The position numbers and the translations under genes were made by a program. Positions 10,674-35,290 of a stretch of DNA of 40,105 bases are shown here, piece after piece. Position 1 is the first letter of the stretch. The number at the start of each line of letters is the position of its first letter. Source of the stretch: an uncultured Synergistaceae bacterium (GTDB lineage Bacteria > Synergistota > Synergistia > Synergistales > Aminiphilaceae); the NCBI GenBank assembly GCA_937868015.1, contig CALMLW010000333.1, positions 1 to 40,105 of the forward strand, in the 5' to 3' direction. The notes below the pieces were generated by a model that did not search any database, was not told the DNA's origin, and saw only the letters and a list, made by a program, of their open reading frames with translations.

Positions 10674-13646
10674 ATGAAGACCCTGTGCCTCATGGCCGTG
10701 CTCCTCTGGCTCGCGGGGGGGGCGGCGGGAGAAACGCCGGGGGCCCCCCCGCTCTCTCCGGACGGAGGGGGGCTTTTGGGAAGCGCCCCGGGGCCGGAGG
10801 AGGTGGACCGTCGCCGAGAGGAGCTCCGCCGCCGGATCATGGCCTTGGTGTATCAGGGGCGCTGGCACGACGCGGAAGCGGAGGCCTGGGCCTTCCGGCT
10901 CCTGCCCTCCTCCACCGGAGGCGCCCGGGAGCGGGGAGAAGAGCTCGTGGTGCGGGGCTACGTGCTCTCGCGCCGGGGGCGGGACGCCGAGGCCCGGGGG
11001 GCGGCGGATCGGGCTGCGGAGTTCCTGGAACAGGGAAAAGACCGGGAGGGGCTCCTGCGGGCTTTGGCGGTGGCCATCCGGGCTTCCCAGGGCATGGGGG
11101 ACTGGAACGGAAGCCGGGAGCGGCTGGACCGCCTTCAGGCGTTGGCCCGGGCCGCGTCCAGCGACTACGGCGCGAGTGTGGGGGCCCTGGAAGAGGGGAT
11201 TTGGGCCTACCACCGGGGAAATGTGCCCGGGGCGGTGGCCTTCTGGGAGCGGGCTTTTTCTCTGGGAAAAAATCTGGACAACCCCGAAATCCGGGGGCTG
11301 GCGGCGAACCACAACGCCCGGGGGCGGTATCTGCTGGGGCGCCACGACGAGGCCCGGCAGTGGTTTGACCGGGCCCTCGACGAGGCCCGGGGGGCCCCCT
11401 GGCTGGAGTTTGTGGTGCGGTTGAACCGGGCGGAGTTTTTGGCGGAGGGGCTTTTCAACTCCGCCGGAGCTCTGGGGGATCTCCAGCGGGCGGAGAAGCT
11501 GGCGGTGTCGCTGGATCTGGGCTCCGGGAGGCTCTGGGCCTGGAACAATCTGGGGACGTTCTTTCTTGCCCGGGGGGAGTACGGCAAGGCCAGCGAGTAT
11601 CTGGAGAAGGCCCTGGACTTTCAGATGGGTCACGACGTCCCCGAGGACGTGGGGGTGCTGATCAACGGGGCCACCCTCCGGCAGGAGCTGGGGCAGGAGG
11701 CCGAGGCGGACAAGCTCCTTCGCCGGGCTCTGGAGCTGGCCCAGGAGCGGGGAGATGTGCGCTCCCAGCCGGGGATTCTGGGAAATCTGGGCATCGTGGC
11801 CCGGCGGCTGGGGTATCTGGCCGAGGCCGAGGGGTACTACCGCCGGGCGCTGGAGCTCTGCCAGCGCCTGGGCATGGATCGCCAGGGGGCGGACCTTCTG
11901 GTGAACGTGGCGAACTTGAACGTGGAGATGGGGGCCTGGGACAACGCGGACAAAGCCCTGGGAGAGGCCCTCAGGGAGTACGAAGCGCGGGGGGATCTCG
12001 TGGGAGAAGCCCTGGTGCGGGCAAACCGGGGCTACGCCCGGTGCGCCGCGGGACGTCGGGCCTTGGGGGTGGAGGATCTTCTCCGGAGCGTGGAGATCGC
12101 CCGGAGGGTGGAGCACCGCCCCCTGATCTTCTTTTCCCTGTTGGAATATGCCCGGGAGCTGGTGGCCTCGGGAGATCGGCACCGGGCGTTGCCCCTCCTG
12201 GAGGAGGCCGCAGGGGTGCTGGAACGTTCCCGGTCGGAGCTGGCCTCCGTGGAGCACCGCATGGCGTTCATGGAGCGGCGCTACGAGGTCTACGATCTGC
12301 TCATGGATCTGTACGTGCGGTCGGGGCGGTTCGCCGAGGCCTTCGACGCGGCGGAGCGCATGAAGGCCCGGGCCTTTCTCGACGTGGTGGGGGGAGGCAC
12401 GGTGAAGCTCCTGCCGAAGGACCGGGATCTGGTGGGGGCGATCACCGCCCTGGAGGGAGAAGTGGAGGTTCTCTCCCGGAAAAAGAGCGACCTCCTGGCG
12501 GCCTCCGCCCCCGTGCCCCGGGTTCTGGAAGACCGCCTGCGGACCCTGCGGGACAAGCTGGCCTTTCTGCGGAGCGAGCTCTCCCTGGCTTCGCCGGAGC
12601 TCCTCTCCCTGGTGGCGGTGCGTCCCCTGTCGCTGGACCGGATTCAAAAGAGCATCCCCGAGGGCACGTTGGTGGCGGATTATCATCTTCTTGCCGATCG
12701 GGTCCTGGTCTTTCTTCTCTCCCGGAACGAGTTCTCCTGCCGGGAGCTCCCGCTCCTTTCCCGGGATGCGGTGTCGTCGGCGGTGCGGGCGGTGGCCCCC
12801 GCCCTGAAAGACTACAAGGCCGAGATTCCCTACGTGGAGCTTTCCCGGCTCTATCTGGGGCTGGTGGCTCCCCTGGAGGAGCCCTTCCGGAAGGCGGAGC
12901 GCGTGGTGGTGGTGCCCCAGGGGGTGCTCTCCTACGTGCCCTTCCAGGCCTTTTGGGACGGCGAGGGCTTTTTGGTGCGGCGCTTCGCCATCTCCTACGC
13001 CCCCTCCCTGAGCGTCTACGCCCTGTTGGCGGCAAGGGAGGGTCCCACGCCCAAAAATCTGGTGGGATTCGGCAACCCCGCCTTCGCCGACGCCGCCGTG
13101 CCCCCCCTGCCCTTTGCGGAAGAGGAGGCCCGGCAGGTGGCGGCCCTCTTTCCCCGCTCCCAGCTCCTGATCGGGCCGGACGCCACGGAATCGGCCCTCT
13201 ACGCCCGGGCTCCGGAAGCGGACGTGCTGCATCTGTCCACCCACGCCAAGGCCGATCCGAAACGCCCCTTAAACAGCGTGATTCTCCTCGCCCCCGGAGG
13301 AGGGCAGGACGGAAGACTCACGGCGGGGGAGGTCTTCGGCATGAATCTTTCGGCGGACTGTGTGGTGCTGAGTGCCTGTGAAACCGCCCTGGGAAGCATG
13401 AATCACCAGGAGGGGCTCGTGGGGTTCTCCCGGTCCTTTTTCCACGCGGGGGCGTCCTCCCTCTTCGTCAGCCTCTGGAGCGTGGCGGACGAGGCCACCC
13501 GGGATCTCTTCGTGGCGTTCTTCTCCCGGTGGCTCGGGGGGATGTCGAAGTCCCGGGCCCTCCAGGAGGCCCAGATGGCGGTGTTGTCCCGGACGAATCA
13601 TCCCATGTTCTGGGCCCCGTTCATCCTTTTGGGAAGAGAGCAGTAG
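10674..13646 (+). CDS. Exported TPR-CHAT domain protein, putative caspase-like protease
   Basis: A 990-residue protein with a signal peptide (MKTLCLMAVLLWLAGGAAG), about 550 residues of tetratricopeptide repeats (for example LGNLGIVARRLGYLAEAEGY) and a C-terminal CHAT domain (about 690-990). CHAT domains belong to the caspase/separase clan. The expected dyad is visible as His857 (VLHLSTHAKAD) and Cys902 (VVLSACETALG), and the end GLVGFSRSFFHAGASS to HPMFWAPFILLG is typical. TPRs usually bind the partner or substrate. CHAT proteins such as the CRISPR-linked TPR-CHAT Craspase are cytoplasmic, so export is notable. ATG 10674 has AGGAGG six bases upstream. It sits between two exported proteins with PsbP/DcrB-like modules, which are candidate partners or substrates. 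Confidence 0.9.
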   Translation: MKTLCLMAVLLWLAGGAAGETPGAPPLSPDGGGLLGSAPGPEEVDRRREELRRRIMALVYQGRWHDAEAEAWAFRLLPSSTGGARERGEELVVRGYVLSRRGRDAEARGAADRAAEFLEQGKDREGLLRALAVAIRASQGMGDWNGSRERLDRLQALARAASSDYGASVGALEEGIWAYHRGNVPGAVAFWERAFSLGKNLDNPEIRGLAANHNARGRYLLGRHDEARQWFDRALDEARGAPWLEFVVRLNRAEFLAEGLFNSAGALGDLQRAEKLAVSLDLGSGRLWAWNNLGTFFLARGEYGKASEYLEKALDFQMGHDVPEDVGVLINGATLRQELGQEAEADKLLRRALELAQERGDVRSQPGILGNLGIVARRLGYLAEAEGYYRRALELCQRLGMDRQGADLLVNVANLNVEMGAWDNADKALGEALREYEARGDLVGEALVRANRGYARCAAGRRALGVEDLLRSVEIARRVEHRPLIFFSLLEYARELVASGDRHRALPLLEEAAGVLERSRSELASVEHRMAFMERRYEVYDLLMDLYVRSGRFAEAFDAAERMKARAFLDVVGGGTVKLLPKDRDLVGAITALEGEVEVLSRKKSDLLAASAPVPRVLEDRLRTLRDKLAFLRSELSLASPELLSLVAVRPLSLDRIQKSIPEGTLVADYHLLADRVLVFLLSRNEFSCRELPLLSRDAVSSAVRAVAPALKDYKAEIPYVELSRLYLGLVAPLEEPFRKAERVVVVPQGVLSYVPFQAFWDGEGFLVRRFAISYAPSLSVYALLAAREGPTPKNLVGFGNPAFADAAVPPLPFAEEEARQVAALFPRSQLLIGPDATESALYARAPEADVLHLSTHAKADPKRPLNSVILLAPGGGQDGRLTAGEVFGMNLSADCVVLSACETALGSMNHQEGLVGFSRSFFHAGASSLFVSLWSVADEATRDLFVAFFSRWLGGMSKSRALQEAQMAVLSRTNHPMFWAPFILLGREQ

Positions 13647-15825: not shown

Positions 15826-16199
15826 CCTCCGTCGCCCCGATCTTGGCGAAGTCGTCCGCTCCGGGGCCTCTTCCGTGTGCGGCCCGGGAGAAGAGCGGCG
15901 GAAGGAATTTTCCAATTCTCATGTTCTGGCATACTTGCCGTGTCCAGAGTTCGTCAAGATTCGTTGCCTCGGCAGATGTCCCGTTTCCGGCCAGGGGGTT
16001 CTTGTGCGCTCCGTACCCCCTCAACGTCTCCGCACCGTGGCGGGAGCTTCCGTTTCCCTTGCCGGAGATGCGGACGAGGGCCCCACACGGGGGCGGCGCC
16101 ACCTCTCCACCGGAATCATCCTTTTCGTAAGGTCGTGGTGCGATGAAGAGAAATGTTAAAATGGTTATTCTGGTACACACTTTGAGAGGAGGTCGAACA

Positions 16200-17204
16200 A
16201 TGCGTTGGGCAACGGGATTTCTTGTGGCGGTGTTTTTGATGACATGCGGGACAACATCTTTGGCAGGCCAGCAACGGGACATGGGGGAGCTGCAAAAGGC
16301 GGCGGAGGGCGGCAAGGTCGAAGCGCAGTTTGAGATGGGGCTCGCGTACTGGTCCGGTGACGGGGTCCCCGTGAACGAACCCGAGGCGGCGAAATGGTTC
16401 GGCAAGGCCGCCGACCAGGGGCACCCTCTGGCACAGGCCTATCTCGGCCTGCAGTACTTCGAAGGCGCGGGCCTTCCGAAAGACGAAGCCCGGGGTCAAA
16501 GCCTCGCCGGAGCGGCGAAGGATGCGGTTGTCCGGATGGCGGAAGAAGGCAACGTTGCCGCGCAAGACGTTCTTGGAGAATTGTTCAGGGGTGGAATCGG
16601 CGTGCCGCAGGACGACGCGAAGGCGGTAGAGTGGTACCGCAAGGCGGCGGAGCAGGGGAATGCTGACGCCCAGTTCGAGCTCGGCGTGATGTACGCGAAC
16701 GGCCAGGGCGTGTCGCAGGACGACATGAAGGCGATGGAATGGTTCCGCAAGGCGACGGAGCAGGGGAATGCCTTCGTTCAGTGGCGTCTCGGCGCGATGT
16801 ACGAGTTTGGCCTGAACGTGTCGGAGGACTTCACGAAGGCGGTGGATTGGTACCGCAAGGCGGCGGAGCAGGGGTATGCCCCAGCCCAGCGCAGCCTCGG
16901 CAGTATGTACCGGGAAGGCCGGGGGGTGCCGCAGGACGACACGAAGGCGGTGGATTGGATCCGCAAGGCGGCGGAGCAGGGGTATGCCTTAGCCCAGGGC
17001 AACCTCGGCGAGATGTACCAGTGGGGTCGGGGCGTGAGGCAAAATGACAAAGAAGCGTACCGGTGGTACTACACCGCCGGTGTACTCGGGGACGCCGATG
17101 CCGCTGAAAGAGCGAAGAGGATCGTCGTGTCGGTGTCGGCAGAGGATGCCGCGAGAATCCGTCGCGAAGTGGACGAAAAAATACGGCGGCAGGGGTGGAA
17201 ATGA
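16200..17204 (+). CDS. Exported Sel1-like repeat protein
   Basis: A 334-residue protein with a signal peptide (about 1-23, ending TTSLAGQQ) and seven Sel1-type repeats of about 36 residues. These are an alpha/alpha solenoid used for protein-protein contacts at the envelope. A typical unit is AQFELGVMYANGQGVSQDD followed by KAMEWFRKATEQGN; unit two is degenerate and longer. At the DNA level units three to six repeat with a 108-bp period, a sign of recent duplication. ATG 16200 is chosen because GAGGAGG lies eight bases upstream; in-frame ATG 16143 lacks this. It is isolated between repeat clusters with no operon partner. No enzymatic domain is seen, and its partner is unknown. Confidence 0.88.
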   Translation: MRWATGFLVAVFLMTCGTTSLAGQQRDMGELQKAAEGGKVEAQFEMGLAYWSGDGVPVNEPEAAKWFGKAADQGHPLAQAYLGLQYFEGAGLPKDEARGQSLAGAAKDAVVRMAEEGNVAAQDVLGELFRGGIGVPQDDAKAVEWYRKAAEQGNADAQFELGVMYANGQGVSQDDMKAMEWFRKATEQGNAFVQWRLGAMYEFGLNVSEDFTKAVDWYRKAAEQGYAPAQRSLGSMYREGRGVPQDDTKAVDWIRKAAEQGYALAQGNLGEMYQWGRGVRQNDKEAYRWYYTAGVLGDADAAERAKRIVVSVSAEDAARIRREVDEKIRRQGWK

Positions 17205-22875: not shown

Positions 22876-23130
22876 ATGGCGGGAACGATTTTCTACCGGG
22901 AACGGCGCAAAGTGGGAGAGCAGGATCGGCAACCGCGTTTTCGCGTGGTGGCCGTGGCGGGGGCGGAGATCCATTTTTTCGCCACCCATCTGCGCCTCCA
23001 GGAGTTGGAATCCATGGCCCAGGCGGTGGGAGCCACCCTGGTGGCCCTCCCCGCAGGTGAGGGACACGAGGGGGGGCACGGAGGGCGCCGGGGATGTGGC
23101 GGGCACCGGGGAGGAACTCCCTGTTCCTAG
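22876..23130 (+). CDS. Small conserved-looking protein of unknown function
   Basis: An 84-residue protein. Residues 1-60 look like a real folded domain: a charged start (MAGTIFYRERRKVGEQ), a beta-strand RFRVVAVAGAEIHFFA, an amphipathic helix LRLQELESMAQAVG and the strand ATLVALPAG. The last 25 residues are a Gly/His/Arg-rich tail (HEGGHGGRRGCGGHRGG) of low complexity. The ATG is preceded by GGGAGGGAAGG at a good distance, with a perfect TATAAT upstream. It is transcribed towards the riboswitch operon, but a separate promoter lies between. I do not recognise a named family. Confidence 0.6.
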   Translation: MAGTIFYRERRKVGEQDRQPRFRVVAVAGAEIHFFATHLRLQELESMAQAVGATLVALPAGEGHEGGHGGRRGCGGHRGGTPCS

Positions 23131-23160: not shown

Positions 23161-23190
23161 TTGACGGAACGACGGTTCCTTGCGTAAAAT
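23161..23190 (+). promoter_or_regulatory. Promoter of the riboswitch-controlled tungstate/molybdate operon
   Basis: TTGACG (23161-23166) and TAAAAT (23185-23190) are 18 bp apart. They are correctly placed to start a transcript about 70 nt ahead of the riboswitch aptamer, with only AT-rich sequence nearby. Confidence 0.6.
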
Positions 23191-23399: not shown

Positions 23400-23436
23400 C
23401 CGTCTTCCATAAATTCTTTGGAAGACGGTTTTTTTT
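23400..23436 (+). terminator. Intrinsic terminator of the riboswitch expression platform
   Basis: CCGTCTTCC (23400-23408) and GGAAGACGG (23420-23428) form a perfect 9-bp stem with an 11-nt loop, followed by eight Ts (23429-23436). It starts 20 nt after the aptamer and ends 28 nt before the first start codon. It is thus a premature terminator whose formation the aptamer would control. Confidence 0.93.
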
Positions 23437-23464
23437 GGGGGCCACCGAGCGAGGAGAGAAATCA

Positions 23465-24214
23465 ATGCGTTGGTTTGTGGGCATGGACGATACGGATGTG
23501 GTGGGGGCTCCCCAAGGCACGGGGAAGGTAGCCCGGTTCTTCGGCGGAGCTCTTCCCGAGGGATGGCGCTGTCTGGGCGTGGTGCGCCAGCAGCTTTTGG
23601 TGGATCCCCGGATTCCCTACACGTCGCACAACAGCGCCGCGTGCGTGGTGTTGGAGGGAGAAGGGGAAAAAGAAAAACCGGGGGAGCTCCTGGCGACCCT
23701 GGGGGCGGCCCATCTGGGGGCTTTTGCCCTCCCGGGGAGCGACCCCGGGCTCTGCGTGGCGCCGGAGGGGCACCCCGCGCTGAAACTCCTGGGAGATTTC
23801 GGGGAGCGGGCTCTTCGGGAAGTGCTCTCCCAGGACGATGCCCGGGAGGCGGCGCGGGAGGTGCACCTTTCCGCCCACGGAGGTACGGGGGACGGCATCA
23901 TCGGCGCCGCCGCCGCCGTGGGGCTCACGGCGGCGGGGTGGCGCGGCAGGTGCATTTCCTGGGGGGATCTGCGGGAGCTTCCCGAGGCTGTTCCCGTGGA
24001 GGAGCTGGAGCGCCGGGGCCTGCGGGTGGTGTGGCTGGAGCGGGACGCCTTTTCCGTGCCTCCCGGGGCGTTGATTCGGGGAGGCGGGTGGTTTCGCCCC
24101 TTTCTCCTGGGGGGATCTCCGGTGCTTTTGGTGCACCGGGAAGAGGACGGAACCTTTCGGACGGTGCCCGGCAAGGAACGAATCCAAAGGAACGACCGGA
24201 AGAGGGAGGGATGA
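23465..24214 (+). CDS. TiaS-like protein (tRNA-Ile2 agmatinylcytidine synthase related), role unknown
   Basis: A 249-residue protein whose start MRWFVGMDDTD matches the DDTD opening of TiaS, the archaeal enzyme that modifies the tRNA-Ile2 wobble cytidine. LLVDPRIPYTSHNSAACVVL aligns with the TiaS LNP-N-IPYKTRGNAA region, and GGTGDGIIGAAAAVGLTAAG with its ferredoxin-like part. It is shorter than archaeal TiaS and lacks its C-terminal OB-fold and zinc ribbon, so tRNA modification is unlikely. It is the first gene after the riboswitch and runs into the MoSto-like gene with almost no gap, which suggests a molybdenum/tungsten-related role. ATG 23465 is chosen because GAGGAGAG precedes it and the DDTD motif follows; the frame is open to 23264, but that part covers the riboswitch and terminator. 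Confidence 0.75.
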   Translation: MRWFVGMDDTDVVGAPQGTGKVARFFGGALPEGWRCLGVVRQQLLVDPRIPYTSHNSAACVVLEGEGEKEKPGELLATLGAAHLGAFALPGSDPGLCVAPEGHPALKLLGDFGERALREVLSQDDAREAAREVHLSAHGGTGDGIIGAAAAVGLTAAGWRGRCISWGDLRELPEAVPVEELERRGLRVVWLERDAFSVPPGALIRGGGWFRPFLLGGSPVLLVHREEDGTFRTVPGKERIQRNDRKREG

Positions 24215-24216
24215 CC

Positions 24217-25047
24217 ATGGCGCTGGAGCGCGAGCGAGACGGAAAACGGTTGCATGTGAAGAGTCGGCTCATGGGAGAGAGCCTGGTGAGCCGGAGTTTC
24301 GCCGAACAGTTGGAAACGGCGCCCCAGGTGCGCCTCTTCCCCGATGTGCACGTGCTGAAGATCGGCGGGCAGTCCCTCTGTGACCGGGGAGCCAAGGCCC
24401 TTCCGGCGTTGGCCCGGGAGATCGTGGAAAACAAGGCCCGGCACAAGATGCTCTTCACCACCGGAGGGGGCACCCGGAGTCGCCACATCTACGCCATCGG
24501 CCTGGAGCTGGGGATGCCCACAGGGATCATCGCCAAGTTCGGGAGCTCGGTGTCGGAGCAGAACGCCCTGCTCGTGGCCACTCTCCTGGCCCCCTGGGGG
24601 GGACTCAAGATCGGCCACGACGAAATCGTGAAGCTCGCCACCTATTTTGGCCAGGGGTGCATTCCCGTGATGCACGGCATGCCCCCCTACGACTACTTCG
24701 CCCTGCCGCCGGAGAAGGGGCGTATTCCGTTGCACCGTACCGACGTGGGGACGCTCCTTCTGGCGGAGCTCATCGGCGCCAAGAGCTGCATCTTTTTGAA
24801 GGACGAACGGGGGCTCTACACCGACGATCCCAAGAAAAACCCCGGGGCGGAGTTTATTCCCGAGATCTCTGTGGCGGAGTTGCGCGAGCTCGATCTGGAC
24901 GATCTGGTGCTGGAGCGTCCCTGCCTGGAGATCCTGGAACGGAGCGAGGTGCTGGACCGCATTCTCGTCGTCAACGCCCTGGAAGAGGGAAACCTCACCC
25001 GGGCACTCGACGGGGAAGCGGTGGGAACGGTGATCCGTCGGAAGTGA
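24217..25047 (+). CDS. Molybdenum storage protein (MoSto) subunit homologue, amino-acid-kinase fold
   Basis: A 276-residue protein, the size of Azotobacter MosA/MosB. Those proteins form a heterohexameric cage that packs molybdate or tungstate as polyoxometalate clusters at the expense of ATP. Matching stretches are VLKIGGQSLCDRGAKALPAL, FTTGGGTRSRHIYAIGLELG, FGSSVSEQNA, the short GMPPYDYF, RTDVGTLLLAELIG, FLKDERGLYTDDPKKNPGA and VNALEEGNLTRALDGEAVGT. These give the kinase fold and nucleotide site. Unlike Azotobacter only one subunit gene is present, so a homohexamer is inferred. UMP kinase is the nearest alternative, but the GMPPY region and long N-terminal extension favour MoSto. ATG 24217 fits the GAGGGAGGG better than ATG 24211. 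It lies between the TiaS-like gene and the oxoanion importer genes. Confidence 0.88.
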   Translation: MALERERDGKRLHVKSRLMGESLVSRSFAEQLETAPQVRLFPDVHVLKIGGQSLCDRGAKALPALAREIVENKARHKMLFTTGGGTRSRHIYAIGLELGMPTGIIAKFGSSVSEQNALLVATLLAPWGGLKIGHDEIVKLATYFGQGCIPVMHGMPPYDYFALPPEKGRIPLHRTDVGTLLLAELIGAKSCIFLKDERGLYTDDPKKNPGAEFIPEISVAELRELDLDDLVLERPCLEILERSEVLDRILVVNALEEGNLTRALDGEAVGTVIRRK

Positions 25048-25066
25048 GGAGACGGCGTCACAAAAG

Positions 25067-25082
25067 CCGGAGTGTGCTCCGG
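25067..25082 (+). other. Intercistronic hairpin (MoSto-like to wtpA-like)
   Basis: CCGGAG, loop TGTG, CTCCGG in the 60-bp gap. With the hairpins at 26098 and 27003 it is one of three in successive gaps of the operon. Confidence 0.5.
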
Positions 25083-25107
25083 AACATGTTGAAGGGAGTG
25101 GTTTTTT

Positions 25108-26061
25108 TTGAAGGGGAAACGGCTGATGGGAGTGTTGTTGGCGGCGGCGGTGATTCTGGGGGCGGCGGGGGTCTCCGGAGCCAAGGAAACGTTGACGGTG
25201 TGGCATGCGGGAAGCCTGAATGCGGCGCTGAAGGATGTGGAGGCCCGCTTTCTGGAGAAATATCCCGATCTGGAGATCCAGGACAAGGGGGCGGGGAGCG
25301 TGGAGCTCGCCCAGGCCATCGTGGACAAGGGGGGGTGCGACCTCTACCTCACGGCGGACTACCGGAACATTGAAGATCTGCTGAAGCCCCAGCACGCCAC
25401 GTGGAACCTCCTCTTCTGCACCAACGCCATGGTCATTGCCTACAGCCCCAAGGCTCCCCGGGCGGGGGAAATTTCGGCGGCGAACTGGTTCCGGGTGCTG
25501 GCCCGGCCCGACGTGGCGTGGGGGCACACCGATCCGAACAAAGACCCCGGGGGATACCGGGCGATCATGGTGTTGCAGCTCGCCGAGGCGTTCTACGGCC
25601 AGCCGGGGTTGGAAAAAAGCCTCATGGAAGCTCCGGGGCACCGGGTGGTGGACGGGATCAACGCCAAGGGAGTCAAGAAGCTCATGGAGTGGGGTTCTCT
25701 GGGGTACATGCTCAAGTACCGTTCCTACGCCGTGGCGGACGGCATGCAGATGATCGACCTCCCGGCGGAGATCAACCTGGGAGATCCCACCTTCGCGGAA
25801 AACTACGCCAAGGCGTCGGTGGAGATCAAGGGCAAGGGGGACGAGAAGATCACCATGCGGGGTGAGCCCGTGGTCTACGGCCTCACCATCCCCACGTCGG
25901 CGAAAAACGGAGCCCGGGCGCTGGAGTTCGTCCAGTTCCTCCTCTCCCCCGAAGGCAAGCAGATCCTGGAGAAGCGGGGATTCGGCCTCATGACCCCCGC
26001 CCCCGCCACCCCCCGGGACAAGCTGCCGGCGGAAATCGCCGCCCTCACTGCGGCGCAGTAG
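25108..26061 (+). CDS. wtpA: WtpA/ModA-type tungstate-molybdate binding protein
   Basis: A 317-residue periplasmic binding protein. A signal peptide (about 1-24, VILGAAGVSGAKE) is followed by TVWHAGSLNAALKDVEARF, then DKGAGSVELAQAIVD, CTNAMVIAYSPKAPRAGEIS, NWFRVLARPDVAWGHTDPN and DPGGYRAIMVLQLAE. These match the WtpA group of high-affinity tungstate/molybdate receptors, rather than the shorter classical ModA. A second oxoanion receptor, TupA, is encoded next, so the single permease and ATPase may serve both, or the WtpA permease lies elsewhere. TTG 25108 with GGGAG ten bases upstream gives a full signal peptide; ATG 25126 would remove the positive n-region. The gene is third in the riboswitch operon. 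Confidence 0.87.
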   Translation: MKGKRLMGVLLAAAVILGAAGVSGAKETLTVWHAGSLNAALKDVEARFLEKYPDLEIQDKGAGSVELAQAIVDKGGCDLYLTADYRNIEDLLKPQHATWNLLFCTNAMVIAYSPKAPRAGEISAANWFRVLARPDVAWGHTDPNKDPGGYRAIMVLQLAEAFYGQPGLEKSLMEAPGHRVVDGINAKGVKKLMEWGSLGYMLKYRSYAVADGMQMIDLPAEINLGDPTFAENYAKASVEIKGKGDEKITMRGEPVVYGLTIPTSAKNGARALEFVQFLLSPEGKQILEKRGFGLMTPAPATPRDKLPAEIAALTAAQ

Positions 26062-26097
26062 GCCCAAGGATCCAAGACCGAAGACGAGAGGAACCCC

Positions 26098-26115
26098 CTG
26101 GACCCTGGGGTCCAG
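26098..26115 (+). other. Intercistronic hairpin (wtpA-like to tupA)
   Basis: CTGGACCC (26098-26105) pairs with GGGTCCAG (26108-26115), 8 bp with a minimal loop that would open by one or two pairs in RNA. Confidence 0.5.
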
Positions 26116-26143
26116 ATCATGTCCTTGAGGAGGATGAAAAAGA

Positions 26144-26968
26144 ATGAAACGTACAATGCGCATCTTGTCCCTCGTCACGCTGGTTCTGATGCTCGCCACG
26201 GCGGCGTTTGCCGCCCCCGTGCTCCGCATGGCCACCACCACCAGCACCGAGGACACGGGGCTTTTGGACTACATGGAGCCCTTCTTCCGCCAGGCCACGG
26301 GGATTGAGTTGCAGTGGGTGGCAGTGGGCACCGGCAAGGCCCTGGAACTGGGCAAGAACTGCGATGTGGACGTGCTCCTGGTGCACGCCCCCAGCGCGGA
26401 GAAGATCTACGTGCAGGAAGGGCACGGGGTCAACCGGCGCCAAGTGATGTACAACGACTTCGTGCTCCTGGGCCCCGCCGCCGACCCCGCCAAGGTGAAG
26501 GGCCTCGCCGTGGGTGAGGCCCTGAAGGCCATCGCTGCGGCGAAACAACCCTTTGTGAGCCGGGGAGACAAGTCGGGAACCCACGTGGCGGAACTGGTTC
26601 TTTGGAAGGGCGCGGGGATGGAGGCTCCGGACAAGGACGCATGGTACATCTCCACGGGGCAGGGCATGATCCAGACCATCAACGTGGCCGGGGAGAAAAA
26701 TGGCTACACCCTGGCGGACCGGGGCACGTTTATTAAATACGAGGCCAATGCCAAGGGCAATCCCCCTGTGGTGATCCTCGTGGAGGGAGATTCGGCCCTG
26801 CGCAACCAGTACAGCGTCATCGCCGTCAACCCCGCCAAGTGTGCCAACGTCCAGTACGACCTGGCGCTGAAGTACGCCGACTGGATGGTTTCCCCCGAGA
26901 CCCAGAAGCTCATCGCGGACTTCAAGCTCGAAGGTAAGCAGCTCTTTTTCCCCAACGCCGACGAGTAG
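26144..26968 (+). CDS. tupA: Tungstate ABC transporter substrate-binding protein TupA
   Basis: A 274-residue exported binding protein. The signal peptide (about 1-23, LATAAFAAP) is followed by the TupA hallmark MATTTSTEDTGLLDYMEPFF. Further hallmarks are VGTGKALELGKNCDVDVLLVHA, VMYNDFVLLGP and SRGDKSGTHVAE, the strongly conserved oxoanion-binding segment. TupA proteins bind tungstate with very high affinity and selectivity over molybdate. ATG 26144 has AGGAGGATG upstream. It is followed by tupB and tupC, giving a complete importer. Together with the WtpA-like protein the operon has two receptors and one transporter core. Confidence 0.95.
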   Translation: MKRTMRILSLVTLVLMLATAAFAAPVLRMATTTSTEDTGLLDYMEPFFRQATGIELQWVAVGTGKALELGKNCDVDVLLVHAPSAEKIYVQEGHGVNRRQVMYNDFVLLGPAADPAKVKGLAVGEALKAIAAAKQPFVSRGDKSGTHVAELVLWKGAGMEAPDKDAWYISTGQGMIQTINVAGEKNGYTLADRGTFIKYEANAKGNPPVVILVEGDSALRNQYSVIAVNPAKCANVQYDLALKYADWMVSPETQKLIADFKLEGKQLFFPNADE

Positions 26969-27002
26969 ATCCCTCCGGCGGCGTCTGAGGGCGACATGAG
27001 AT

Positions 27003-27031
27003 CCGGGGGGTGCGAAAGGCTCACCCCCCGG
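27003..27031 (+). other. Intercistronic hairpin (tupA to tupB)
   Basis: CCGGGGGGTG (27003-27012) pairs with CACCCCCCGG (27022-27031), a 10-bp stem with a 9-nt loop, followed by CGTTTTG. It may stabilise the receptor part of the transcript or partly terminate it, a common way to make more binding protein than permease. Confidence 0.6.
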
Positions 27032-27056
27032 CGTTTTGTGTGAAGGAGGTTTCCCC

Positions 27057-27752
27057 ATGGACTACATCGCCCAGGGAGTGATCCAGGCCTTCGTCCTGCT
27101 GTGGACGGGGGACGAAGAGACCTGGTCCGCGATCTACACCACGGTGAAGATGTCTTCCATCTCCATCGCCGTGTGCCTCGCCCTGGGGACTCCCTTGGGA
27201 TTCATCCTGGGGTACGCGGATTTCCCCGGGAAAAAGGGCGTGCGCACGGTGGTGAACACCCTGTTGGCCCTCCCCACAGTGGCGGTGGGGCTGGTGGTTT
27301 ACGCCTTCATCTCCCGGAGGGGTCCCCTGGGAGAGCTGGGGCTCCTTTTCACGGTCTCCGGCATGGCGGTGGGGCAGATCATCCTGGCCCTGCCCGTCGT
27401 GGTGGCCCTGACGGCCAATGCGGTGGAGAGCATGGACGAACGCCTCCGCCTGACCCTCCTCACCCTGGGGGCCGACGGAAAGCGCCTGGCCCTTTCCACC
27501 CTCTACGAGGCCCGTTACGCCGTCCTCTTGGCGGCGGCCAACGCCTACGGCCGGGTCATCTCCGAGGTGGGGGTCTCCATGATGCTCGGGGGCAACATCA
27601 AGTGGCACACCCGGACCATCACCACGGCGATTTCCCTGGAGACCGGCAAGGGGGAGTTTGCCCTGGGCATCGCCCTGGGACTGGTGCTCTTGATCCTGGC
27701 CTTCGCCGTGAACTCTGTCCTATCCTTGGCGCGTCAGAGGGCGACGATATGA
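27057..27752 (+). CDS. tupB: Tungstate ABC transporter permease TupB
   Basis: A 231-residue inner-membrane permease with about five or six hydrophobic helices, for example SSISIAVCLALGTPLGFILG and IALGLVLLILAFAVNSVL. The cytoplasmic loop ERLRLTLLTLGADGKRLALS includes the ABC-coupling EAA-type motif. The length and N-terminus (MDYIAQGVIQAFVLLWTGDE) fit TupB. ATG 27057 has AAGGAGG eight bases upstream. Its stop overlaps the tupC start (ATGA at 27749-27752), the classic sign of translational coupling between a permease and its ATPase. Confidence 0.95.
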   Translation: MDYIAQGVIQAFVLLWTGDEETWSAIYTTVKMSSISIAVCLALGTPLGFILGYADFPGKKGVRTVVNTLLALPTVAVGLVVYAFISRRGPLGELGLLFTVSGMAVGQIILALPVVVALTANAVESMDERLRLTLLTLGADGKRLALSTLYEARYAVLLAAANAYGRVISEVGVSMMLGGNIKWHTRTITTAISLETGKGEFALGIALGLVLLILAFAVNSVLSLARQRATI

Positions 27753-28768
27753 CCCCCCTCTACGAACTGCAGGGAGTGGTGCGGCGCTACGGAGACCGAG
27801 TGGCCCTGGACGTCCCCGAGCTCGCCATCCACCCGGGGGAGATCGTGGGCCTAGTGGGGCCCAACGGTAGCGGCAAGAGCACCCTCTTGCGGACCCTGGC
27901 CTTTTTAGACCCCCCCGACGAAGGGATGCTCCTCTTTCGGGGGGCTCCTGCGTGCCCCGCCACGCCGGAGCTCCGGCGCCAGGCCACCTTGCTCCTGCAG
28001 GAGCCCTACCTTCTCAAGACATCGATCTTCGAGAACGTGGCATACGGGGTGCGCCTCCGGGGGGAAAAAGACCCCGTCGGGCGGGTGAGAAAGGCCCTGG
28101 AAGCCGTGGGGCTGGATTACGACGCCTTCGCCCGACGCCCCTGGCACGCCCTCTCCGGAGGAGAGGCCCAGCGGGTGGCGCTGGCGAGCCGCCTGGCCCT
28201 CCGCCCGGCGGTGCTCCTTCTGGACGAACCCACGGCCAGCGTGGATGCATCTAGCGCTGGCGCCGTGCGGAACGCCATCCTGTCGGCGGTGCGCCAGGAC
28301 GGCACCACCCTGGTGGTGGTGAGCCACGACCTCTTGTGGCTCTACGAGGTGGCCAGCCGCACGGTGGGGCTCCGGGGGGGGCGCGTCGTCGCCTCCGGGG
28401 CGGAAAACGTGCTGGCGGGCCGGTGGGAACGGAAAGAAGGGGAGCCGGGGCACCTGGTGCTGGAGGACGGTCAGGGGGTGATGGCCCCCCCTATGCCCCT
28501 CGGAGCCACGATGGGGCTCCTATCCCCAGAAGCCATTGCCCTATCTATCCTTCCCCCCGGAGGGAGCGCCCCCCGCAACGTCTTGAAGGGAACCGTGGGG
28601 CAGATGTTCTGGGAAAGGGGTCCTCACCGGGTGCTGGTGCGCGTGGGGGTGGGGTCTCTTTCCCTCGCGGTTCGGATGACCGCAGACGCCGTGCGCGACC
28701 AGGGAATCCACCCGGGACGAGAAGTGTGGCTCTCCTTCGACCCCTCTGCCCTGCGCTGGGGTTCCTAA
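27749..28768 (+). CDS. tupC: Tungstate ABC transporter ATP-binding protein TupC
   Basis: A 339-residue ABC ATPase. Walker A GPNGSGKST is at residues 37-45, the Q-loop near LLLQEPYLL, the signature LSGGEAQRVALASRLAL, Walker B VLLLDEPTASVD and the switch His in VVVSHDLLWL. After the ATPase domain a C-terminal part of about 90 residues (from NVLKGTVGQMF) looks like a Mop/TOBE domain, which in molybdate and tungstate ATPases binds the oxoanion and can inhibit transport. It is the last gene of the riboswitch operon. Confidence 0.95.
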   Translation: MTPLYELQGVVRRYGDRVALDVPELAIHPGEIVGLVGPNGSGKSTLLRTLAFLDPPDEGMLLFRGAPACPATPELRRQATLLLQEPYLLKTSIFENVAYGVRLRGEKDPVGRVRKALEAVGLDYDAFARRPWHALSGGEAQRVALASRLALRPAVLLLDEPTASVDASSAGAVRNAILSAVRQDGTTLVVVSHDLLWLYEVASRTVGLRGGRVVASGAENVLAGRWERKEGEPGHLVLEDGQGVMAPPMPLGATMGLLSPEAIALSILPPGGSAPRNVLKGTVGQMFWERGPHRVLVRVGVGSLSLAVRMTADAVRDQGIHPGREVWLSFDPSALRWGS

Positions 28769-30864: not shown

Positions 30865-32862
30865 CTAGAGCTGCCGCGCCACCTCGTAGGCGGTCCACAC
30901 CGCGTGCTGCACGTTGGCGGGTCGCAGGGCGTCTCCCACCAGATAGGCCTCGGGGAAGGCCCCAGAGACCTCTTGCCAGATGCCCCGGTCGGAGCGGTAT
31001 CCCGTGGCCAGCACCAGCGTGTCGCAGGGAAGGAGACGCTCCCCGTCGGCGCTCTGGATCGTCGCCCCCTCGGGGGCCAGGAGCGAGAGCCGCGCCCCCG
31101 TCCACACCCCCACCCGGTGGAAGGTCAAAAGATCCAGGAGCATGATCCGGTTGGGGTGGGGCACGTCCCCCGTCGTCATGAGCCCCTCCCGGACCTCCAC
31201 CAGCTCCACCTCATGCCCCTGCTGGGTGAACCACACCGCCAGCTCGCACCCCACAAAGCCTCCCCCCAGCACCACCAGGCGCCGCCCCAGGGGCCGTTCT
31301 CCCCGCAGGGCCTCCTGGGCGGTGAGGACTTCGGGGGCTCCTTCCCGACGTTTCCCCAGGGGGGGCACGAGGGGGAGGGATCCCGTGGCCACCACCACCG
31401 CATCGGGGTTCACGGCGTCCAGGACCGCTCGGTCTCCCCGGTGGTGCAGCCGCACGTCGACGTGTCCCCGCTCCAGCTCCCGGCGGTACCAGGCCAAAAG
31501 CCTTCGGTCGTCGCGCTTAAACTCCGGGACGGAGCCCTCGATGACGTGCCCCCCCAGCTCTCCGGTGCCCTCGAAGAGCACCACGGCATGGCCTCGGAGG
31601 GCGGCCACCCGGGCCGCCTCCATGCCCGCGATGCCTCCGCCCACCACGGCGATCCTCCGCCGCTCCCGGGCGGGGGTCAGGGCAAATTCGCGCTCGCGCC
31701 CCGTGGCGGGGTTCACGGTGCAGGAAAGGGGCTTTCCCTTGGCAATCCGATTCATGCAGGCGTCGTGACACCCGATGCAGGGACGGATGGAAGCGACGTC
31801 CCGGCGCCGGACCTTGAGGGGCCAGGCGGGGTCCGCCAGCAGAGGGCGGCCGAGGGATACGCCGTCGGCCCGCCCCTCCCGGAGGGCTCGCTCCGCCCGG
31901 TCGGGGTCTCCCAGCTTGCCCGCAGCGATGACGGGCACCGAGACCACTCCCTTCAGCGCCTCCGTGTAGGGAAGGTAGCACCCCTCCTCCAGGTACACCG
32001 GGGGATGGGCCCAGTACCACGATTCGTAGGTTCCCGCATCGGCGTTGAAGGCGTCGTATCCCGATTCTTCCAGGATCTTTCCCGCCTCGAGCCCCTCGGC
32101 CATGTCTCGGCCGAACTCCTGGAACTCTTCCCCCGGAAGCCCCCCCTGACGCCACCCCTTCATGAAGCTCTTGAGGGTATAGCGCAGCATCACGGGAAAA
32201 TCCTCCCCCGCGTACCGGGCGATGGCCCCCCGGACCTCCCGGGCCGCCGTCAGCCGCCCCCGGAGATCGCCCCCGTACTTGTCCGTGCGACGGTTACAGC
32301 AGGCCAGGGCAAATTGGTCCAGCAGGTACCCCTCGTGGACCGCGTGGACTTCAATGCCATCGAAGCCGCACTCCCGGGCGATGAGGGCGCTGGCGCCGAA
32401 GGCGTCGATGAGGCGTGTCACCTCGTCGATATCGAGCTCCCGGCAGAGGATGGAAGGGTCCCAGTAGTTGGGTATGGGAGAAGGGGCCACAGGGCGAGGG
32501 ACCAAGGTAGGGGGGGCTACCCGGCCGAATCCCATGGTGAGCTGGAGGAAAATTCGGCAGTCGAAGGCGTGGACCCGTTCCGTGAGCTCCAGGGCCCGGA
32601 GGCGGAAGTGGGCGGGATTCACCAGGGGAGCGGGCTGGGAGGGCATGGGGAAGGGTTCGATGTCATTTTCCACCTTCACCGTCCCCGTGATGAGGAGCCC
32701 CGCCCCTCCCCGGGCGCGCTCCACGAAGAACTCCACCGCCCGCTCCTCGAACCCCCCCTGGGGAGTCGCGAGCCCCGTGAGTCCCATGGGGGCCATGGAA
32801 ATGCGGTTTTTTAGCTCTACATTGCCGATGCGCATGGGTTCAAAAAGCTTTTCGTAGGCCAT
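30865..32862 (-). CDS. Old Yellow Enzyme/FadH-type NAD(P)H:flavin oxidoreductase A
   Basis: A 665-residue multidomain flavoenzyme. Residues 1-350 form the FMN TIM barrel (KLFEPMRIGNVELKNRISMA, then LGRPLLADP). Next is the cluster-binding CIGCHDACMN with a fourth Cys 11 residues later, for one 4Fe-4S. Two dinucleotide folds follow, VVGGGIAGMEAARVAALRG and VVLGGGFVGCELAVWF, for FAD and NAD(P)H. This is the plan of 2,4-dienoyl-CoA reductase and BaiCD/BaiH-type enoate reductases. The barrel segment CCNRRTDKYGGDL departs from the usual SP-NxR form, so the substrate may differ. ATG 32862 has GGAG 11 bases upstream; ATGs at 32871 and 32883 are possible. It is divergent from the second flavoenzyme, across a shared operator. 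Confidence 0.9.
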   Translation of the reverse strand: MAYEKLFEPMRIGNVELKNRISMAPMGLTGLATPQGGFEERAVEFFVERARGGAGLLITGTVKVENDIEPFPMPSQPAPLVNPAHFRLRALELTERVHAFDCRIFLQLTMGFGRVAPPTLVPRPVAPSPIPNYWDPSILCRELDIDEVTRLIDAFGASALIARECGFDGIEVHAVHEGYLLDQFALACCNRRTDKYGGDLRGRLTAAREVRGAIARYAGEDFPVMLRYTLKSFMKGWRQGGLPGEEFQEFGRDMAEGLEAGKILEESGYDAFNADAGTYESWYWAHPPVYLEEGCYLPYTEALKGVVSVPVIAAGKLGDPDRAERALREGRADGVSLGRPLLADPAWPLKVRRRDVASIRPCIGCHDACMNRIAKGKPLSCTVNPATGREREFALTPARERRRIAVVGGGIAGMEAARVAALRGHAVVLFEGTGELGGHVIEGSVPEFKRDDRRLLAWYRRELERGHVDVRLHHRGDRAVLDAVNPDAVVVATGSLPLVPPLGKRREGAPEVLTAQEALRGERPLGRRLVVLGGGFVGCELAVWFTQQGHEVELVEVREGLMTTGDVPHPNRIMLLDLLTFHRVGVWTGARLSLLAPEGATIQSADGERLLPCDTLVLATGYRSDRGIWQEVSGAFPEAYLVGDALRPANVQHAVWTAYEVARQL

Positions 32863-33098
32863 TTTATCCATTGCTCCTTCCATCGACTCTCACCGAAGGG
32901 GGGCCCTTTTGGCCCGGGGAGTCCGGGGGACGGGGCGGGGCGGTCTTCCCCCTTCGGATATGCCCCTTTCCCCCATGGTGGCTCGGAGCCCCTCCGGTGT
33001 CAAGGGGAGTGGGGCCTTTGCCCCCTCGCCCCCGGGGGAGTAGGGCGAACCGAAGTACCCTAAGGAGAAGTTTTTTTACTCCGAGGGTACAAGAGGGC

Positions 33099-33146: not shown

Positions 33147-33316
33147 TCCTCCTGCGCAGGATTTCCAAATCGAAGTCATCGCCCATCCTCGAGTGATGGG
33201 GCCTTGGCTTTCCGTGTCTTGTCGTGCCCCATGGCGACGCGGGGTCCGAAGGCGCGTCAGCGCCGGGGCGGCTGCGTCTCCACGGGCTCCAAAAGGGAGA
33301 GGAGGAGTCTTTCGTC

Positions 33317-35290
33317 ATGGCCATGGTCGTAAAAAAATTTCCCCACCTGTTTAGCCCCATCCGGATCGGGTCTCTGGTGGCGCGTAACCGGATCGAATCG
33401 GCCCCCATCAGCATGGGAGATCTGACCCCCGAGGGATATCTGACGCGGGAGAACGTCGCCGCCTACGAGGTGAAGGCCCGGGGGGGCGCCGCCATCGTCA
33501 ACATCGGCGAGAGCAACGTGCACACCCGGACGGGGAAGGCCCATGGGCGCATGGTCCCCCTGGACGACGAAGAGGTGTTGCCCTCCCTCATCAACACCAC
33601 CGACGCCATAAAGCGCCACGGCGCCATCGCCTCCATCGAGCTGATTCACCCGGGGCGTCGGGCCAATCCTCGCTACTTCGACGGCGACACCTACGGCCCC
33701 ACGGGGGGGCCGGGGCTCTTTGGCAAGCCCGTGATCGAGCTCACCGAAGAGCTCATCGAAGAGATCGTGGAGGCCTTCGGCGACGCGGCGGAAATGGCCC
33801 GCCTCGGGGGCATGGACATGTGCATGGTCCACGCGGGGCACGGCTGGCTGGTACACCAATTCTTCTCCCCGCTGAACAATCAGCGCACGGATCGCTTCGG
33901 TGGCAGCCTGGAAAATCGGGTGCGCTTCGCCTTCATGATCGTGGACAACATCAGGAAAAAATGCGGCCGGGACTTTCCCATCGAGTTCCGCATCAGCGGC
34001 TCGGAGCTGACCCCTGGGGGGTTCGACCTCGATGACATGATGGAGTTTGCCCGGATGGCGGACGGCCGCATCGACCTCTTGAACGTCTCCGACGGCACGT
34101 TCCACGTCCCCTCCACCAACACCACCATGGTGCCTTCCATGTTCCTCCCCCACGGATGCAACGTCTATCTGGCCGAGGGTATTAAAAAAGCCGTGAAGAA
34201 AACCCCCGTGTCCGCCCTGGGGGGTATCGGCGATCCCGAGATGATGGAAGAGATCATCGCCAGCGGCAAGGCCGACATGGTGGCCCTGGGGCGGGCCCTC
34301 ATCGCCGATCCCGACCTTCCCCGCAAGGCCAAGACGGGGAGGGCGGACGACATCACGCCCTGCCAGCGCTGCATCGTCTGCATGAGCGGCTCCTTTGTCC
34401 CCTACGTCAAGTATCCCACCCGGGTGGGCAAGTGCACCGTGAACCCCACCATCGGCAAGGAGTATGAGCTTTTCACCTCTGTGCCCTCCGAGGGGCGCAA
34501 GCGGGTGGTCATCGCCGGGGGAGGCCCAGCGGGCCTGCAGGCCGCCATCACCGCCGCCGACCGGGGGCACGAGGTCTTCCTCTTCGAAAAAAGCGGGAGT
34601 CTGGGGGGAGCCATTCAGTTCGCCGAGCACGTGCCCTTCAAGGCCGATCTCAAGAAATTTATGGATGTCCTGATCCGCCGGGTGGAGCGTCGGGCCATCA
34701 CGGTGCACCTTAACACTCTCCTGACGCCGGATCTGGCTCGAGAGCTGAGGGCCGACGTGATCATCGCCGCCGTGGGGGCCGATCCCATCGTCCCCTCGCT
34801 GCCCGGCATCGACGGGCCTCACGTGGTGCGAGCGGTGGATCTTCACGACGAAGGGGTCACCGTGGGCCCCCGCGTGGTCTTCATCGGCGGAGGGCTCGTG
34901 GGGTGCGAGGAGGGGCTCGACCTGGCCCAGCGGGGGCACAGGGTGACGGTGCTGGAGATGCGGGAGAACGTGGCCATCGACGCGGCCTACCTCCACCGGG
35001 AGGCCCTGCTGCTGGAGATCGCCAAACACCCCGAGGCCATCACCTTGCTCACCCACATGCGGTGCAAAGAAGTCACCCTCGAAGGGGTGGTGGCGGTGGA
35101 CGAAGCGGGGACGACCCGTTTCTTCGAGGCCGACACGGTGGTGGTGGCGGCGGGCATGCGTCCCCGATCCGAGGCGGTGGAAAGCCTCCGGGATTGCGCT
35201 CCGGACTTCCTGGTTATCGGCGACGGGCGGAAACCCCAGCGGGTCCTCGAGGCGGTGCGATCGGGGTATGACGCGGGGATGCACCTATGA
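33317..35290 (+). CDS. Old Yellow Enzyme/FadH-type NAD(P)H:flavin oxidoreductase B
   Basis: A 657-residue paralogue of the divergent flavoenzyme, with the same plan. The FMN barrel starts FPHLFSPIRIGSLVARNRIE and contains the typical HAGHGWLVHQFFSPLNNQR then TDRFGGSLENRVRF, which supply FMN and substrate contacts. The iron-sulfur region is CQRCIVCMSG plus a later Cys in GKCTVNP; its spacing, CxxCxxC, is tighter than the usual CxxCxxxC. Dinucleotide folds are VIAGGGPAGLQAAITAADRG and VFIGGGLVGCEEGLDLAQRG. It probably reduces an enoate or enoyl-CoA-like double bond. ATG 33317 has GAGGAGG upstream. It is followed by the APC permease after 138 bp, and is under the TTGACA promoter with the TGTACATGTACA operators. 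Confidence 0.92.
   Translation: MAMVVKKFPHLFSPIRIGSLVARNRIESAPISMGDLTPEGYLTRENVAAYEVKARGGAAIVNIGESNVHTRTGKAHGRMVPLDDEEVLPSLINTTDAIKRHGAIASIELIHPGRRANPRYFDGDTYGPTGGPGLFGKPVIELTEELIEEIVEAFGDAAEMARLGGMDMCMVHAGHGWLVHQFFSPLNNQRTDRFGGSLENRVRFAFMIVDNIRKKCGRDFPIEFRISGSELTPGGFDLDDMMEFARMADGRIDLLNVSDGTFHVPSTNTTMVPSMFLPHGCNVYLAEGIKKAVKKTPVSALGGIGDPEMMEEIIASGKADMVALGRALIADPDLPRKAKTGRADDITPCQRCIVCMSGSFVPYVKYPTRVGKCTVNPTIGKEYELFTSVPSEGRKRVVIAGGGPAGLQAAITAADRGHEVFLFEKSGSLGGAIQFAEHVPFKADLKKFMDVLIRRVERRAITVHLNTLLTPDLARELRADVIIAAVGADPIVPSLPGIDGPHVVRAVDLHDEGVTVGPRVVFIGGGLVGCEEGLDLAQRGHRVTVLEMRENVAIDAAYLHREALLLEIAKHPEAITLLTHMRCKEVTLEGVVAVDEAGTTRFFEADTVVVAAGMRPRSEAVESLRDCAPDFLVIGDGRKPQRVLEAVRSGYDAGMHL

Follow-up and report, generated by a model that had tools for sequence, protein, structure and literature searches.

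The operon described here, from an uncultured Synergistaceae bacterium, joins one gene of the MoSto family (the storage proteins known from Azotobacter) to a WtpA-like receptor and a TupABC importer, all lying 3' of a Moco-family riboswitch. According to our sequence analysis, this gene is a member of a third, single-gene MoSto lineage, apart from true UMP kinases and accompanied by two partner genes. We lean towards the view that its product is an ATP-using, homo-oligomeric tungstate-holding protein, which would be fed by TupABC and served by two accessory proteins with no second MoSto subunit. By "the window" we mean the whole analysed stretch of 40,105 nucleotides; the features of the operon are collected in Table 1.

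Results

Table 1. Positions of the genes and control elements of the operon in the window (all E-values and scores refer to the named models)
Feature	Position	Strand	Remarks
Small basic protein, no known family	22876..23130	+	84 aa; just 5' of the riboswitch
Promoter-like site TTGACG-18-TAAAAT	23161..23190	+	just 5' of the riboswitch; 10/12 consensus match
Moco/Tuco riboswitch aptamer (RF01055), without stem P3	23263..23382	+	59.7 bits against a gathering score of 36
Intrinsic terminator (CCGTCTTCCA-N9-TGGAAGACGG-T run)	23400..23437	+	expression platform 3' of the aptamer; read in the sequence
Stand-alone TiaS-type kinase-domain (TCKD) protein	23465..24214	+	249 aa; without TiaS tRNA-binding domains
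MoSto-like amino-acid-kinase-fold protein	24217..25047	+	276 aa, single copy; PF00696 fold
WtpA-like tungstate/molybdate-binding protein, without its own permease	25108..26061	+	NF003196 3e-78, TIGR03730 8e-69, both under curated cut-offs
TupA tungstate-binding protein	26144..26968	+	NF041772 4e-108 (under cut-off)
TupB permease	27036..27752	+	NF041773 7e-91 (under cut-off)
TupC-like ATPase with C-terminal TOBE domain	about 27746..28768	+	NF041774 6e-42 (under cut-off); PF00005, PF03459 TOBE

The MoSto-like product matches MosB in the PDB with an E-value of 1e-62 and MosA with 9e-43, while the best UMP kinase reaches 6e-9; it is 43% identical to MosB over the full length and 35% to MosA, and belongs by sequence to the MoSto subclass of amino-acid kinases. 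All NCBIfam UMP-kinase models stay far under their cut-offs (28 and 60 bits for TIGR02075 and TIGR02076, against 244 and 158), and a separate true PyrH is encoded in all five genomes tested, the bacterium's own and four others. In a maximum-likelihood tree all MoSto proteins split from the PyrH proteins of the same genomes with support of 100/100. PDB E-values, NCBIfam scores, the separate PyrH and the tree together rule out a UMP-kinase identity. An earlier note on this DNA had read the gene as a full-length MoSto-subunit homologue, with coordinates that proved right, and had named UMP kinases or other amino-acid kinases as the nearest relatives that would speak against it; in both the PDB search and the tree the nearest are MoSto proteins.

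The same tree shows three MoSto lineages, namely MosA, MosB and that of the window, in an order that it does not resolve (80/39); the single gene may or may not predate the MosA/MosB duplication. One copy was found in the bacterium's own genome (an 84%-complete MAG) and one in 14 of 15 other carriers tested, among which are the finished chromosomes of Synergistota L-13, Desulfonema magnum, Desulfosarcina widdelii and D. alkanivorans. In neither that MAG nor those 14 carriers was a MosA/MosB pair or a second MoSto subunit found, unlike MoSto, whose two paralogous subunits are encoded together. The exception is a Desulfobacterales genome, where a second MoSto-like protein, about 50% identical (51% for the copy as measured), adjoins the first (L051:8885-9724, minus strand); its branch in the tree falls outside the main family, and it may represent a further MoSto-like type. 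Pairs in the order mosB-mosA occur on Azospirillum plasmids (for instance NC_013859.1, 8001-9658), where public annotation calls the MosB homologues 'uridine kinase' or UMP kinase, the former label being likely a misannotation.

A scan of species genomes returned 339 relatives, and the best 80 of these, 65-79% identical, come almost all from Desulfobacterota, Syntrophia and Synergistota. Within Synergistota the gene is present in 8 of 188 genomes spanning 5 genera, a pattern that suggests horizontal spread; the gene set reaches beyond this phylum, and the lineage is common in Desulfobacterota and Syntrophia.

The residues of the ATP site (K48, GGQS and K195-D196-E197) are as in MosB, including the two lysines K48 and K195, one of which is replaced by Glu190 in MosA. 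The positions of MosA Glu129, His156 and His140, the last of which we take to be the histidine of the tungstate cluster in MosA, are occupied by Gly133, Asp159 and Tyr143. In MosA, Glu129 and His156 are covalent ligands of octamolybdate (Mo8), and tungstate is found in a three-histidine cluster on the three-fold axis (PMC4504029). Relatives of the window protein show Gly, Ser or Ala at the Glu129 position, Asp at the His156 position (83/83) and Tyr at the His140 position (82/83). Since the cluster ligands are replaced throughout the family, the metal would not be held in the manner of MosA. Absence of the residues that hold polyoxometalate was another observation which, according to the earlier note, would count against its reading, and for these three positions it is what we see; the cluster residues speak against a mechanism copied from Azotobacter. 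The family nevertheless has near-invariant residues of its own (His134 82/83, Lys139 83/83, Tyr143 82/83, His153 80/83, Asp159 83/83, His173 80/83), and its 65-79% identity across phyla goes together with a nearly invariant N-terminus and loop. Such a conservation pattern looks more like that of an enzyme or a specific complex than of a passive store.

The family of the small basic protein has about 65-84 residues and a median pI of 9.6. Of 98 loci, 97 have its gene next to the MoSto-like one (E<1e-3), and the 98th is cut by a contig end; in 76 of 79 it immediately precedes the MoSto-like gene. Searches of Pfam, NCBIfam and the PDB gave no relative. Structures were predicted for both partners, each as a monomer; for the small protein a beta-beta-alpha-beta core was obtained (pLDDT 75), and this fold has no PDB match. 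By its recurrence in the loci, this protein of about 70 residues is an almost obligate, undescribed companion of the MoSto-like gene. The earlier note's "one-subunit" protein is right as to a single gene per genome and takes no account of this partner.

The other partner, the TCKD protein, matches the NCBIfam TiaS model over positions 1-153 of 422 (9e-7) and, as a profile, TiaS in the PDB (4e-8); its monomer model (pLDDT 90.7) finds TiaS by Foldseek at 3.5e-9 over 160 residues, and the DDTD motif is kept in 50 of 50 sequences. The likeness to TiaS, tRNA-Ile2 agmatidine synthetase, extends over the N-terminal 160 residues and this motif, whereas the TCKD protein is bacterial and linked to MoSto-like genes; absence of the tRNA-binding domains rules it out as a real TiaS. 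About two thirds of loci have the TCKD gene close to the MoSto-like one, and it was found in 12 of 15 whole genomes of carriers tested. A TCKD type of Desulfobulbaceae that is transcribed divergently, seen in L079:5601-6344 and similar loci, has a match to 'methanogenesis marker protein 11' (7e-10), a hint that the same kinase domain is part of this orphan marker of archaea.

Across Synergistota, one identical set of 8 genomes out of 188 carries the small-protein, the TCKD and the MoSto-like gene; the two partners had escaped the earlier note, as had the missing P3 stem of the riboswitch and the terminator behind it. As neighbouring genes travel together, this co-occurrence is a sign that they are linked and does not count as a series of separate events. 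Both partner genes are missing from the Azospirillum mosBA pair, which makes the partners specific to the lineage of the window. The order riboswitch, MoSto-like gene, importer, as first described, also holds; the riboswitch is not adjacent to the MoSto-like gene, the TCKD gene standing between them with its stop two bases 5' of the MoSto-like start codon.

TupA, TupB and a TOBE-bearing TupC stand in one operon, their matches being strong, yet under NCBIfam cut-offs; the complete Tup importer with an extra WtpA-like receptor is thereby confirmed. Close to the operon are two divergent old-yellow-enzyme/FAD oxidoreductases (30865-32883, minus strand, and 33224-35290, plus strand), and elsewhere the window encodes a protein of 990 residues that combines TPR repeats with a CHAT protease domain (10674-13646) and a protein of Sel1 repeats (16143-17204).

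The aptamer aligns to RF01055 over its full length with the P3 columns absent, as does every riboswitch near the module whose alignment was read, all of them in Synergistota. P3-less Moco-family RNAs were assigned to the tungsten cofactor by Regulski et al. in the part of their paper on which we draw (PMC2408646). The window aptamer resembles that class in its full-length match, its lack of P3 and the nearby Tup genes, and differs in its target, a TCKD/MoSto-like gene pair, which goes unmentioned in that part of the paper (PMC2408646). A riboswitch stands 5' of the TCKD/MoSto genes themselves in the window and in two related loci, L040 and L085. In each of those two loci, Moco-family riboswitches occur two or three times in a few kilobases of DNA (L040:5482, 7851 and 13593; L085:125 and 2361), in front of the TCKD/MoSto genes and again in front of TupA, and the ones in L040 are without P3. 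None of eight Desulfobacterota/Syntrophia loci tested has a Moco-family riboswitch, so this control is a feature of Synergistota.

Terminators follow 7 of 9 related aptamers as well, which puts control at transcription termination. The antiterminator pairing between aptamer and terminator ranks best of all windows in the riboswitch studied here and no better than other stretches in its relatives, so the OFF direction is only likely; judged from these elements, the cofactor likely represses the operon. The promoter-like site is a weak indication, as 0.8 such sites are expected by chance per region.

Among 69 loci that span 8 kb or more, 45 have at least one Mo/W gene (counting Tup, ModA, MOT1, FmdE, formate dehydrogenase, HTH-PBP regulator and AOR), and TupA/TupB-like genes lie near the MoSto-like gene also in distant taxa; about a third of loci have no Mo/W gene within about 7 kb. 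AOR genes occur in all 8 Synergistota carriers and also in 83 non-carriers, so that the module is an optional addition. TupABC, the WtpA-like receptor, the P3-less riboswitch and the AORs uphold the link to tungsten that had been proposed from the sequence. The bacterium's own genome encodes a formate dehydrogenase alpha subunit (G000:C239:6784-8799) with one in-frame TGA, which is probably read as selenocysteine. The gene nifD is absent from all 8 Synergistota carriers, in agreement with the lack of a nitrogenase context noted before, and is above cut-off in 9 of 13 other carriers tested (Desulfobacterota). Supply of metal to nitrogenase is ruled out as a role in Synergistota, whose carriers are without nifD.

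Discussion

We propose that tungstate would be imported by TupABC, aided by the extra WtpA-like receptor, and drawn into an internal cavity of the MoSto-like protein. This protein is most likely a homo-oligomer, built of catalytic subunits like MosB, and would use ATP to take up tungstate or molybdate. The metal would then be held for tungsten enzymes, for example aldehyde oxidoreductases or formate dehydrogenase, with the small basic and TCKD proteins serving as accessory factors, probably in loading, gating or release. The operon would be controlled by the tungsten-cofactor riboswitch and its terminator, and under such control the set would probably be expressed as the cofactor runs short. 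A role in metal storage is suggested here by homology and gene context.

To our knowledge, MoSto has been studied only in nitrogen fixers. The protein of Azotobacter vinelandii (PDB 2OGX, 4F6T), which itself takes up tungstate too, shares with the window protein the family over the full length and the MosB-type ATP-site lysines. MoSto is an (alpha-beta)3 assembly of a pair, whereas the window lineage has one gene; it differs further in lacking the MosA cluster ligands, in its link to the small protein, TCKD and Tup import, and in Synergistota carriers that have no nitrogenase. According to one paper, no homologues of MoSto are known (PMC6448029). The Tub protein of Eubacterium limosum, a 7-kDa TOBE-domain tungsten storage protein that forms a hexamer binding 8 tungstates, offers a parallel, as its proposed task is to hold the tungstate needed by AOR and formate dehydrogenase, in an anaerobe that likewise has TupABC (PMC11980592), while its fold is unrelated to that of the MoSto-like protein. 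Our search of the open-access literature returned no description of the module.

The main alternative to storage is an ATP-dependent oxyanion-processing enzyme or a metal chaperone, which would activate tungstate or molybdate or hand it over to cofactor synthesis or to the maturation of formate dehydrogenase or AOR, the TCKD and small proteins being working parts of one complex and bulk storage having no place in it. Very strong conservation, with Asp159, Lys139 and Tyr143 invariant or nearly so where MosA holds its clusters, speaks for it, as do the almost obligate small partner, the joint regulation with import by a cofactor riboswitch, and the formate dehydrogenase, FdhE-like and FmdE genes close by in some loci; the conservation and the riboswitch fit it about as well as they fit storage. 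The nearest characterised relatives are nevertheless true storage subunits, and riboswitch-linked import genes suit a storage-plus-uptake unit too, so we regard this alternative as rather unlikely, though it deserves serious attention. We find it improbable that the protein is an oxyanion sensor or regulator reporting internal tungstate or molybdate to transporters or enzymes: importers and ModE-like and HTH-PBP regulators do co-occur with it in some loci, but it has no DNA- or membrane-binding part, its ATP-site lysines are intact and the riboswitch already senses the cofactor.

Its MosB identity over the full length could also be taken to mean a plain MoSto homologue, building polyoxometalate clusters exactly as in Azotobacter, with incidental partners; the missing cluster ligands, the lack of a MosA gene and the lineage-specific partners, which the Azospirillum pair does without, make this very improbable. 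Hardly any credence is left for a UMP kinase, or another nucleotide or amino-acid kinase, sitting by chance in a tungstate operon, a thought invited by the amino-acid-kinase fold and the 'uridine kinase' annotation of MosB homologues, when true PyrH is encoded separately, the kinase models and the tree exclude it and the Mo/W context recurs in distant taxa.

Returning to the tungstate-holding protein that we prefer, a more specific picture can be offered as a tentative possibility, in which we place rather low confidence: strict anaerobes would have a machine of three proteins that holds tungsten and is switched by the tungsten cofactor. In it, a homo-oligomeric MoSto-like cage would have its own, different cluster-binding residues, the 70-aa protein would be built in as a subunit or act as a gate, and loading or release would be driven by the stand-alone TiaS-type kinase.

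For strict anaerobes such as this Synergistota bacterium, our analysis points to a way of handling tungsten that stands apart from nitrogen fixation. Through the widespread third lineage, ATP-driven metalate storage would extend to tungsten-dependent sulfate reducers, syntrophs and Synergistota, and the lineage would supply the first candidates for partner proteins that act in loading and release, offering a testable function for an orphan 70-aa family and for a stand-alone TiaS kinase domain.
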